Shown: positions 46,535-50,184 of the stretch, piece by piece
How positions within the stretch are numbered: position 1 is the stretch's first letter
How the letters are laid out: each line of letters begins with the position of its first letter
From: Alicyclobacillus hesperidum
GTDB taxonomy: Bacteria; Bacillota; Bacilli; Alicyclobacillales; Alicyclobacillaceae
Direction of reading: 5' to 3'
NCBI RefSeq assembly: GCF_900107035.1
Contig: NZ_FNOJ01000005.1
Coordinates: forward strand, 1-64,000
DNA: 64,000 bases
Program-made: the position numbers and the translations under genes
The notes under the pieces: generated by a model
Told to the model about the DNA's origin: nothing
The model's input: the letters and a program-made list of their open reading frames with translations, nothing else
The model's database searches: none

Positions 46535-47053
46535 CTACATGCGGTGAAGCCAAGCGAACACGACAAGAGCACCACCACTAAGCCAAGCCAGATTGTGCAG
46601 CCATTGTCGCATTAGTTGACGCCGCGGTTTGGCAATCGAAAATTCGGCACGCTGAATTCGCTCATGCAACACATCGACAAAGAGCACACCGTGGACACCA
46701 AGAATCACAGTAAGAGGAAAATATTTTTCATTCACTTCAGTTTCTGGTACCTTCTCTAGCGTTACAAACACAGCATACTCGCGTCCATTTTTACGCGCAA
46801 TGAAGTCGGCGCTCATGGAATAACTCCATTGTGAATCGTCAACCCAACCAACGTATTCCGCCTTGCCTTCGATCCGCAGAATATCGTACCCATTTTCTTC
46901 AAGCCACTTGCGCGCAACCGATTTCAGGCCATCGACACCAACTTCGCGATCACGATAGAGCCATTCGCGACACAAGGAGCGAATGACGATGCCAACACAG
47001 ATACACGCCGCCAGCAAAGCCAAGCCCGTCAGCATGTGACAGCCAACTCCCAA
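46535..47053 (-). CDS. Hypothetical membrane protein between tlyA and nadK
   Basis: A 172-aa protein, not recognised. It has an N-terminal transmembrane segment (about 8-27), a soluble middle domain (ENGYDILRIEGKAEYVGWVDD and REYAVFVTLEKVPETEV) and a second transmembrane segment at the C-terminus. The middle domain has the look of a nuclease-like or PD-(D/E)XK-like alpha/beta fold, but no catalytic set was confirmed. The start is TTG 47053 or ATG 47035. Co-directional with tlyA and nadK. Confidence 0.6.
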   Translation of the reverse strand: MGVGCHMLTGLALLAACICVGIVIRSLCREWLYRDREVGVDGLKSVARKWLEENGYDILRIEGKAEYVGWVDDSQWSYSMSADFIARKNGREYAVFVTLEKVPETEVNEKYFPLTVILGVHGVLFVDVLHERIQRAEFSIAKPRRQLMRQWLHNLAWLSGGALVVFAWLHRM

Positions 47054-47076: not shown

Positions 47077-47907
47077 TCAACCTGGCTCCCTTCCCTCGCT
47101 TCCAACAGCGTGCCATGCAGAATCGACGAGGTCAGAACAGCGCGATCTCCATGTAGCGGTTTGCTCTGGACTCGGAAACATTCGCCACCATGCAAGAAAT
47201 TCAATATTTCCGTCGCCACCTGAAATTGGAGAGTAATCGAGCCCCCAACAGGACCAGCCGAGTGTTGTGACATGATCCAGCATGTCCAACAACACGTCGA
47301 GATGAACCTGTTTGTCTCGGACAATCCCCCCCTTGCCGACTCTCCCCCTGCCTGCTTCAAACTGTGGCTTAATCAGACTGACGATATCAGCAACAGGATT
47401 ACATACCTCTGCTAACTTCGGAAATAGCAATTTGGTCGAGATGAACGAAACGTCCATCACAGCCAAATCTGGAGTCGGATCGAATAACACTGGATCGGCA
47501 TGGCGGAAATTGAATCGCTCCATCACGCGGACGCGATCGTCTTGGCGCAACGACCACGCCAATTGCCCATATCCGACGTCGACTGCATAAACCAAGCGCG
47601 CCCCGTGCTGCAAGAGACAATCCGTGAAGCCACCCGTCGAGGCTCCAACATCGATAGCGACGCGATCCACAACGGGTATACCAAAGGTCGTCAACGCCCG
47701 TTCCAGCTTCAACCCACCGCGCGAAACAAATTGATGCGGTGGCCGCTTCACCGTAACCTGTCGTTCCGGGTTAATTTGCGTCCCCGGCTTTTCGACACGC
47801 ACGCCATCGACATCGACAAGACCGGCCATCACAGCCCGGCGCGCCGCCTCGCGGCTTGGAAAGTCACCCCGTTCATGTAAAAAGACGTCCAATCGAACCT
47901 TGGTCAT
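47077..47907 (-). CDS. tlyA: TlyA-family rRNA methyltransferase/hemolysin-like protein
   Basis: A 276-aa protein with an N-terminal S4 RNA-binding domain (about 3-60; SREAARRAVMAGLVDVDG) and an FtsJ-like methyltransferase domain with AIDVGASTGGFTDCLL (about 84-99) and DLAVMDVSFIS. It probably 2'-O-methylates rRNA, as mycobacterial TlyA does; the Bacillus relative is YqxC. The ATG at 47907 has AAGGAAG upstream. Follows oapA. Confidence 0.92.
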   Translation of the reverse strand: MTKVRLDVFLHERGDFPSREAARRAVMAGLVDVDGVRVEKPGTQINPERQVTVKRPPHQFVSRGGLKLERALTTFGIPVVDRVAIDVGASTGGFTDCLLQHGARLVYAVDVGYGQLAWSLRQDDRVRVMERFNFRHADPVLFDPTPDLAVMDVSFISTKLLFPKLAEVCNPVADIVSLIKPQFEAGRGRVGKGGIVRDKQVHLDVLLDMLDHVTTLGWSCWGLDYSPISGGDGNIEFLAWWRMFPSPEQTATWRSRCSDLVDSAWHAVGSEGREPG

Positions 47908-47926
47908 GGTGTCTTCCTTTCTTGCC

Positions 47927-48511
47927 TCACGTCCGATTTGTCCGCCGCAGCCGGGCCGGATTGCGCCCGACAAGAGCGACTGTCTCCCACACACGTGCGG
48001 CAAATAGGATAATGGGCGTCGGTGAGTGAATAGCCACGGTCTTTCCCACGGCCTTGCCTCCGACCGTCAGGGCAGTAATGACAGCCGTAATTCCAATTTT
48101 CCACGCTTCTTGTGCCCAGCCCTGCGCGTGCACAGCAAGTAATACCTGCACGCTGACAGCCAGTGCGCCAGCCCCGCTCAAAACACCCGCGATATCGCCA
48201 ATCACATCACTACATACGCTCGAAACTTTCTCTGCGTTGCGTACAATGGCGATGGCACGACGGGCACCGTAAACCCGCTTAGATGCCATCGCATGGAACG
48301 GCGTCTCCCGCGCCGCAGCTGCCGCCATACCAAGCATGTCGAACAAGGCGCCGATACAAACGATGAGCAGTACGATCACGGCTCCGATGTACCAACTCGT
48401 CTGATTTAAAAAGATTGTAGACGTATCGAAAACCGCACTGATGGGCAAAGTCAGTGCGGCGATAGTCCAAACAAATTTGAAATTGGCTGACCTCGAACCG
48501 TTCTTCTTCAT
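47927..48511 (-). CDS. oapA: OapA, OLE RNA-associated membrane protein
   Basis: A 194-aa integral membrane protein with about four helices (12-28, 41-60, 104-126, 135-152). The conserved cytosolic part reads PFHAMASKRVYGARRAIA, then RNAEKVSSVCSDVIGDI (71-107), preceded by GALFDMLGMAAAAA. I identify it as OapA from this motif set, its length and its place directly after a large structured RNA beside ispA/xseAB. In B. halodurans OapA binds OLE RNA at the membrane; it has a role in cold, ethanol and Mg2+ stress. The ATG at 48511 has a GCGAGGT site that overlaps the RNA's 3' end. Confidence 0.85.
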   Translation of the reverse strand: MKKNGSRSANFKFVWTIAALTLPISAVFDTSTIFLNQTSWYIGAVIVLLIVCIGALFDMLGMAAAAARETPFHAMASKRVYGARRAIAIVRNAEKVSSVCSDVIGDIAGVLSGAGALAVSVQVLLAVHAQGWAQEAWKIGITAVITALTVGGKAVGKTVAIHSPTPIILFAARVWETVALVGRNPARLRRTNRT

Positions 48512-48519
48512 CGAAACCT

Positions 48520-49135
48520 CGCTTAAAGCTGGGTTCTCACGCACCTATGTAATGAAATCAAAGGGTGGCAGTTTCCTGAGTAAACGCTGTGGCTTAGGTC
48601 CAGTAGGTTTTCCCAAGCGTTCACCGAGACGTCGCCGTCACGGTGGTTTCCCATTATGAACACCTTGACAGCGTCACCGACTGTCAGACTGGATTACCAC
48701 TTAGTCCACACTATAATCCTCAGAAAACCTCGCCTTGTAGCGAACAGTCTAGGCGTTTTCCGCAACAGCCGCGAACGCGCCCTAGCCTCTTTTGCAGTAC
48801 GGATTTCACCCAGCACCGGCGGCATCTCCGTGGCCGCGGGACGCCGCCTGAATTCCTGGGATCCTTCAGCACCACTTCAAGGCAGGCTACACTGCACACA
48901 GATTGCCTCCGCATGCAGGTTCATACCCCAAGCCATAACCCTTCCCATGGATTGCGAGCTACGCACTTGGGCCTCCGCGAAAGCTGGGTTAGTCTCCGCA
49001 TGCCATTGCGGGCTACCCAACTTTCTTAACTCCCAGCATAAGCCCAAGGCTGGGCGCCCCAAGCCAACACCAGGAACTTCATCGATGTGCCCTTTGACGG
49101 ATTTTTAGCCCCGCCTTCAGGCGCGGACGGCTGAC
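48520..49135 (-). ncRNA. ole: OLE RNA (ornate, large, extremophilic)
   Basis: About 616 bases without a credible gene lie between ispA and oapA. Minus-strand reading shows many paired elements: a 5' hairpin CGCC-TGAA-GGCG closed by AGCC/GGCT (49107-49132); CCCAGC/GCTGGG near 49050; TGGGT/ACCCA enclosing CCGCA/TGCGG near 49000; GGCGGCGT/ATGCCGCC near 48830; TGACAG/CTGTCA near 48675; CACCG/CGGTG near 48635; and a 3' GAACC/GGTTT hairpin ending at the oapA ribosome site. Length, gene context and the OapA partner match OLE RNA, a membrane-bound ribonucleoprotein RNA of mostly extremophilic Firmicutes. Exact ends are approximate. Confidence 0.8.
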
Positions 49136-49154
49136 TAGAATACTGCGCCACCCA

Positions 49155-49179
49155 ATGACAATCGCAAGCACATTGTCAT
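49155..49179 (-). repeat. Inverted repeat in the OLE 5' leader
   Basis: Perfect 8-bp stem ATGACAAT/ATTGTCAT with a 9-base loop, about 20 bases before the OLE 5' hairpin and after the promoter. It is part of the leader of the precursor transcript. No T-run, so not a normal terminator. Confidence 0.55.
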
Positions 49180-49206
49180 AGACCGAAAGCGACTTTACAT
49201 GTTTGT

Positions 49207-49215
49207 ATTATAGCA
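49207..49215 (-). promoter_or_regulatory. Extended -10 promoter upstream of OLE
   Basis: TGCTATAAT on the minus strand (49207-49215) is a perfect -10 with TGn extension; no clear -35. Transcription would start near 49200, about 65 bases before the OLE core, giving OLE-oapA a promoter separate from the ispA operon. Confidence 0.6.
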
Positions 49216-49299: not shown

Positions 49300-50184
49300 T
49301 CAATGGGAACGAACGAGTACAAGCGATTGTAATTCCGCTAAGTACGGAGAATGAATCCCACACCTGTGCAATGCTTCTTGCCCGCGGGCGATGGTCTCCT
49401 CAGCAAGGCGGCGGGTTTCCTCAATTCCTATGAACCGCGGATAGGTCAGCTTGCCTTCCGCCTCGTCCTTGCCGGCAGTCTTGCCCAGTTCGGAAGTTGA
49501 ACCCACGACATCCAACACATCGTCAACCATTTGAAACGCAAGTCCCAAAGCCTCTCCATAGGTCGAAAGGGCTTCTTGTGCTTTTTCATCTAGATCTGGA
49601 AACAAACTCCCGATCTCCACTGCAGCCTGAATCAAGCGCGCAGTCTTGTGAAGATGAATAAACTGGACATCCGTTAACGTCCCCTGTCCACCGGTTCGCT
49701 CGACGTCGACCGCCTGTCCGCCGACCATACCGTCTGCTCCCGCACGCGAAGCCAGGATTTGAATCATGCGCAACTGCCGCTCAGCAGGAACTTCTGGTAT
49801 GGGCCTGGCCAATAAGGCAAACGCTTCAGTGAGCAACCCATCGCCTGCGAGTAATGCTATGGCCTCGCCGAACACCACATGGTTGGTTGGCTGTCCACGT
49901 CGCAAACTGTCGTCGTCCATACAAGGCAGGTCGTCGTGAATCAACGAATAGCAGTGTATCATCTCCAAAGCCGCCGCTGCCGGCAACACACGTTGGAGTT
50001 CCACGCCAAATGTCTGGGCCGTCGCCATCAGTAACGCCGGGCGGAGACGCTTTCCATCTGCCATCAAACTGTAATTCATCGCTTCATACAAACGCGTCGC
50101 CAGACCGTCCGTGTGAAGAAGACCTTGCAAATACGCTTGTAACTCTGTCTTGCAGAATTCCAAATAGGACCCCATGTCGATCAC
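49300..50184 (-). CDS. ispA: Farnesyl diphosphate synthase
   Basis: A 294-aa prenyltransferase joining IPP to DMAPP/GPP. First Asp-rich motif DDLPCMDDD (84-92), second FQMVDDVLD (about 216-224), GKRLRPALL and GKTAGKDEAEGKLTYP near the end. The GTG at 50184 overlaps the xseB stop. It is followed by OLE/oapA. Confidence 0.95.
   Translation of the reverse strand: MIDMGSYLEFCKTELQAYLQGLLHTDGLATRLYEAMNYSLMADGKRLRPALLMATAQTFGVELQRVLPAAAALEMIHCYSLIHDDLPCMDDDSLRRGQPTNHVVFGEAIALLAGDGLLTEAFALLARPIPEVPAERQLRMIQILASRAGADGMVGGQAVDVERTGGQGTLTDVQFIHLHKTARLIQAAVEIGSLFPDLDEKAQEALSTYGEALGLAFQMVDDVLDVVGSTSELGKTAGKDEAEGKLTYPRFIGIEETRRLAEETIARGQEALHRCGIHSPYLAELQSLVLVRSH

Follow-up and report, generated by a model that had tools for sequence, protein, structure and literature searches.

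What does the roughly 0.6 kb between ispA and tlyA of Alicyclobacillus hesperidum encode, and with which proteins would its product act? The locus lies in a window of 64,000 nucleotides (contig NZ_FNOJ01000005.1), the whole stretch of DNA that was analysed, and the original prediction placed there a full module of OLE RNA and its partner protein OapA on the minus strand. OLE, one of the largest RNAs conserved in bacteria that have no assigned biochemical function, sits at the membrane together with a transporter-like protein. Alicyclobacillus is an acidophilic and thermophilic genus. A search of the open-access literature found no experiment on OLE in Alicyclobacillus and no OLE paper on acidophiles; a soda-lake metatranscriptome, in which OLE RNA accounts for ~1% of the non-coding RNA, draws no link to acidophiles in the text available.

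The region between ispA and oapA encodes a full-length OLE RNA

Covariance-model search, which had been proposed as a check, revealed that positions 49167-48549 of the minus strand match OLE RNA (Rfam RF01071) with 516.2 bits against a gathering score of 50, spanning model positions 1-616 of 616. The gathering threshold is exceeded over the full model, which identifies the sequence as a member of this family. It is the sole OLE match in the genome (E = 1.7e-150; assembly 98.98% complete, 53 contigs), and the same search against 14 well-known control genomes returned zero matches. As the whole model aligned without large deletions, the RNA has the full-length form with P7-P9 present, rather than variant 1 or 2 as these are defined in PMC11332333. 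The OLE region is located between ispA, the open reading frame of which ends at 49300, and the oapA/tlyA pair, as follows:

49300..50184, minus strand: ispA, farnesyl diphosphate synthase, upstream neighbour (NF045485, 338.6 bits)
48549..49167, minus strand: OLE RNA, full length (RF01071, 516.2 bits; conserved columns and covariation)
47927..48511, minus strand: oapA, 194 residues, ATG at 48511, stop included (open reading frame, CNNM-like predicted fold, conserved motifs)
47077..47907, minus strand: tlyA, downstream neighbour (TIGR00478, 262.2 bits)

Open reading frames of 61-150 residues overlap the OLE region; four of them (150 and 128 residues on the plus strand, 64 and 61 on the minus strand) match no Pfam family at E 0.1, in agreement with the earlier view that the ~0.6 kb holds no credible gene. 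The OLE match ends 37 nt before the ATG of oapA, so that OLE adjoins oapA as members of RF01071 should, and 19 nt (47908-47926) separate the oapA stop from tlyA. The genes of the small and large exonuclease VII subunits lie upstream of ispA, and the anticipated setting of OLE upstream of oapA, near isoprenoid and exonuclease VII genes, was thereby recovered. Comparison of 92 loci by tblastn, some of which represent the same genome seen twice, showed dxs between oapA and tlyA in 71, no dxs at this place in 18 including the window, and only oapA in the remaining three; in the genome of the window, dxs is found on another contig. This comparison indicates that OLE-oapA keeps the company of ispA and tlyA when dxs leaves. 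At the protein level, OapA is most similar to those of Alicyclobacillus tengchongensis (100% identical) and A. sacchari (99%), and five other neighbouring proteins compared are 97-99% identical to their A. tengchongensis counterparts, which places the source of the window close to these two species.

Conserved columns and covariation support the OLE fold

Search of the fetched loci with nhmmer yielded 119 full-length OLE hits, corresponding to 89 distinct sequences; the partial hits at five loci (L010, L018, L068, L120 and L125) were excluded from the alignment. The 89 rows favour close relatives (39 are of Alicyclobacillaceae type), since the source genomes were retrieved either via OapA or by their relatedness to the window. 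At all 241 columns that are at least 97% conserved in these rows, the window included, the window keeps the consensus base. When the Rfam pairs were mapped through the window onto the 89 rows, 12,304 of 13,814 cells (89.1%) were paired, compared to 40-45% after the partners had been slid by 1-3 columns; the pairing of the OLE helices is far beyond chance. Double compensatory changes occur at 109 of the 158 model pairs, giving the helices support from covariation, and 147 of the 158 pairs form in the window sequence itself. The weakest helices are a long P9-type stem (61% paired), two stems at 76-77% and a short stem at 79%. Three elements within the RNA deserve separate description:

49080..49087, minus strand: palindrome CATCGATG, after the P4 hairpin (conserved at least 97% in 89 rows)
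48832..48835, minus strand: self-complementary GGCC loop of the long P9-type hairpin (conserved at least 97% in 89 rows)
48570..48729, minus strand: 3' part of OLE with the domain 2 helices, including the OapB site region (covariation)

Judging from its position, the palindrome probably corresponds to the published OapA site at P4a; according to PMC12265935, the sites of OapA are palindromes located within or close to P2 and P4a. The same source describes a dimer contact at the P9 loop, and the GGCC loop, assigned to P9 by position, is a candidate kissing loop of the RNA dimer. In the 3' part, the outer helix (48729-48719/48580-48570) is paired in 99% of cells, with double changes at 10 of its 11 pairs.

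A conserved extended -10 motif precedes OLE

Upstream of the RNA, a promoter-like motif and a stretch of variable length were delineated:

49207..49215, minus strand: extended -10 promoter-like motif TGCTATAAT (conserved in OLE upstream regions)
49154..49206, minus strand: 53-nt stretch separating the -10 motif from base 49153, where the profile match starts (row comparison)

Within the 80 nt before the profile start, TGNTATAAT occurs exactly in 71 of the 89 rows; the other 18 have a version with a single mismatch, which gives 89/89. Among mononucleotide shuffles, 166 of 1780 contain the motif when no more than one mismatch is allowed. The -35 element is weakly kept: the best -35 at a spacing of 16-18 differs from TTGACA, among the 89 regions, by one mismatch in 7, two in 33, three in 26, four in 19 and five in 2, with 2 unscorable. 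A sigma-70 scanner, which demands a -35 element, reported no minus-strand promoter and did not list the extended -10 motif. This motif is a probable promoter of ole itself, as predicted from its conservation. According to the review PMC12265935, the cluster of H. halodurans is transcribed as one polycistronic RNA; besides such polycistronic transcription, the conserved motif points to a further promoter immediately upstream of OLE. This promoter may already be described in the original mapping paper.

The spacing between the -10 motif and the profile match varies among the 39 Alicyclobacillaceae rows, being 51-54 nt in 4 (the window and its three closest rows), 25-33 nt in 11 and 11-19 nt in 24. 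No conserved structure was seen in 49154-49206, and a hairpin considered within this stretch was dropped because it is absent from the three closest rows.

The predicted fold of OapA resembles the membrane domain of CNNM transporters

The coding part of oapA spans 48511-47930 on the minus strand and gives 194 residues; with the in-frame GTG at 48544 as start, the protein would have 205. Alignment of 55 homologues, picked from the window and 80 loci (the best 80 of 194 OapA relatives), showed that the three motifs PFHAMA, RNAEKVS and DVIGDI noted earlier are present, with P71, F72, H73, A74, M75, R91, A93, D102, G105 and D106 identical in all rows. The DxxxD signature (D102-V-I-G-D106), both aspartates of which belong to this invariant set, is a feature of OapA that is absent from CNNM proper (PMC11332333). 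Residues 78-95 form a basic run, and a basic cytoplasmic cluster of OapA is described in PMC12265935. The identity of this OapA to the aligned Bacillaceae and Paenibacillaceae sequences is 41-51%. In 77 of the 80 kept loci the fetched DNA contains OLE, complete or in part, which places the protein among OapA homologues as had been anticipated. It shares with known OapA the DxxxD signature, the basic run, a CNNM-like predicted fold and the adjacency to ole, with no notable difference.

The AlphaFold model of OapA (mean pLDDT 76.9) has four long helices (residues 5-36, 40-66, 93-127 and 132-162) plus a shorter one (164-182), whereas hydropathy analysis by a simple scan yielded three segments, including a long one. 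The 194-residue frame of the original prediction stands, and its description as a four-helix protein is plausible. Structural comparison of the model revealed the archaeal CNNM protein CorB (PDB 7m1t) as the best match, with a Z-score of 14.2 and 132 residues at 2.6 Å. Four CNNM entries lead the matches (Z-scores 14.2, 13.4, 12.0 and 11.8, the next row being 8.4), with the caveat that helical models may attain Z-scores of 13-14 even where no true relative exists. With Foldseek alone, the best match had E = 0.033 and none reached 0.001. Sequence search of the PDB gave no match at E 1. Altogether, the predicted fold of OapA is closest to the CNNM transporter domains.

OapA shares this predicted transmembrane fold with the Mg2+ exporters MpfA, CorB and CorC, but it is not a member of that group: it has 194 residues, it scores 21.2 bits against the CNNM family, under the cut-off of 28.4, and neither a CBS nor a CorC domain was matched up to E = 1. 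In the survey of PMC11332333, OapA is the next-best CNNM match and the next-closest group to MpfA.

Known partner proteins are encoded outside the window

The gene of OapB is found between adk and infA. Its product matches the solved OLE-associated protein B (PDB 7k9b) over residues 8-95 with E = 2.5e-19, and its KOW score is 19.4, under the Pfam cut-off of 22.3. OapC/YbxF, an L7Ae-like protein, is encoded between rpoC and rpsL, with the YbxF structures 3v7e (72.8 bits, E = 2e-19) and 4lck (72.6 bits) as best matches, compared to 39.9 bits for the next, L7Ae. A bS21 gene is also present. The genome thus encodes OapB, OapC and bS21, the binding of which to the OLE RNA of the window is putative. 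Search of the genome for CNNM proteins detected OapA only, and no MpfA was found.

OLE and OapA occur together across relatives

Among 41 genomes of the family, OLE was found in 40. In the exception (G025) the contig breaks off within OLE, with 75 profile positions from the 3' end of the RNA at its very edge, and we therefore rejected this genome as a natural OLE knockout. Likewise, in two Pullulanibacillus genomes and one Caenibacillus genome (L031, L032 and L033, with L132, L134 and L135), OapA is encoded away from OLE; OapA without OLE was rejected here, as OLE is located elsewhere in each genome. These apparent breaks of the published rule that OLE and OapA co-occur are accordingly not real. 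Of these three genomes, two (G042 and G043) each encode two OapA proteins, one beside OLE, and in the third (G041) the only detected OapA is on a different contig from OLE.

In Paenibacillus sp. NAIST15-1, the OLE at L068:4609-4979 lacks most of domain 1, whereas domain 2 and oapA are present; the missing part comprises ~250 profile positions, beginning close to P4a and extending into P9. A search of 19 genomes of the genus found OLE in 10, with this one as the sole short form (371 nt versus 666-673 nt), and as it is the only one among the 10, it may be either a real OLE reduced to domain 2 or an error of assembly. The published survey drew on GTDB genomes from the entire Bacillota (PMC11332333).

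Compared to the OLE RNAs of Halalkalibacterium halodurans and Clostridium, the RNA of the window has the same full model match, conserved nucleotides, adjoining oapA and closeness to ispA and the exonuclease VII genes. No substantive difference was seen; the window has 53 nt between the -10 motif and the profile match, and dxs does not lie between oapA and tlyA. Altogether, the model match, the conserved columns, the covariation and the presence of OLE in 40/41 family genomes establish that the locus is a typical full-length OLE module of an already well-described system, not a new kind. Our additions are modest, namely the extended -10 motif upstream of OLE in 89/89 rows and a comparison of acidophile rows, whose bearing on the membrane-spanning model is weak.

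Proposed mechanism and alternative explanations

We conclude that the window almost certainly carries a full-length OLE gene and oapA which, with OapB, OapC and bS21, would specify a membrane-bound ribonucleoprotein; the RNA and OapA had been foreseen, and the other three partners extend that proposal. RNA-protein binding, membrane location and stress phenotypes are described in papers on Halalkalibacterium halodurans, and the function of OLE in PMC11332333, PMC12265935, PMC9723947, PMC12054373 and PMC12286853. In the mechanism that we propose, OLE would be strongly transcribed, with the extended -10 motif as a promoter of its own and read-through from ispA as a possible further source; it would fold and dimerise via its conserved loops, and would dock on OapA in the membrane. 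OapA would be the transmembrane half of a CNNM-type exporter of divalent cations, lacking the CBS and CorC domains that MpfA has, and the OLE RNA, reshaped by OapC, bS21 and OapB, would replace these domains. Such a device might set the export of Mg2+ or another divalent cation, coupled to cold, alcohol and nutrient stress. Transport by OapA under RNA control was proposed earlier by the Breaker group (PMC11332333, PMC12265935), and the transport is called putative in published work. The division into a membrane half (OapA) and a regulatory half (OLE) is a tentative reading, to which we give somewhat less than an even chance. The missing MpfA fits, rather than proves, such a split exporter, and against it stand 5 of the 41 relatives, which carry both OLE and an MpfA-length CNNM protein (recognised by open frames of 440-483 residues alone).

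Three other explanations were weighed against an intact, free-standing RNA acting in this ribonucleoprotein. The short distance of 37 nt to the oapA ATG, together with terminator predictions not exceeding chance (1 found versus a shuffle mean of 1.3), would suit a structured 5' leader that regulates the oapA mRNA in cis; yet the best OapA homologue lies away from OLE in the three Pullulanibacillus and Caenibacillus genomes, one of which (G041) has its only detected OapA on another contig, and OLE is published as an abundant RNA acting in a ribonucleoprotein (PMC12265935), which makes such a leader very improbable. A ribozyme, as proposed by the Breaker group (PMC11332333), would account for the size, complexity and strong conservation of OLE (234 of the 583 columns examined are conserved at least 97%), with membrane docking merely placing the RNA. 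We consider it unlikely, if less so than a leader, as the published accounts consulted name no reaction as established, and the conservation may largely serve the dimer and protein contacts (PMC12265935). A decayed or non-functional copy is hardly conceivable, since nothing at the locus speaks for it: the 241 conserved columns show no departure, 147/158 pairs form, the OapA frame is intact, and OapB, OapC and bS21 are present. A defective or variant OLE was likewise rejected from the full-model match, conserved columns and pairing, and the copy is complete and very probably functional.

Implications for the membrane-spanning model

With an acidophilic host, the known partners and no MpfA found, the ribonucleoprotein of A. 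hesperidum offers a natural test of two ideas: whether OLE-OapA replaces MpfA, and whether the RNA spans the membrane. In the arrangement of PMC12265935, OLE spans the membrane so that domain 2 lies outside, together with OapB if it is still bound. For the window this would mean ~250 nt of structured RNA outside the membrane in hot acid, as part of the only detected CNNM-type device, which appears rather unlikely to us; either answer would be notable.

Comparison of the 39 Alicyclobacillaceae-type rows with 47 others (three Sporolactobacillaceae-type rows set aside) showed 70.2% identity in domain 2 and 65.0% in domain 1, the borders between the domains being approximate and set by us; a single fixed difference between the groups lies in domain 2, and domain 1 has none. 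When the comparison was made to five presumed alkaliphiles or relatives of these, identity was 68.4% for domain 2 and 65.5% for domain 1. The G+C content of the Alicyclobacillaceae rows is higher in both domains (raw values 0.59 versus 0.52 and 0.56 versus 0.46). The Alicyclobacillaceae rows gave no sign that domain 2 has been retuned for acid, and OapB has no hydrophobic stretch; from these two observations the balance leans, on weak evidence, towards domain 2 inside the cell, contradicting the published arrangement.

Two minor features of the window lie apart from the OLE module. A 172-residue protein encoded between tlyA and nadK (46538-47053, minus strand) has no Pfam or NCBIfam match at E 1; of the 92 rows, 40 gave a tblastn match at E 1e-8, all of them loci of Alicyclobacillaceae type. 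At the window edge, positions 1-142 of the minus strand hold the 5' end of a 16S rRNA gene.
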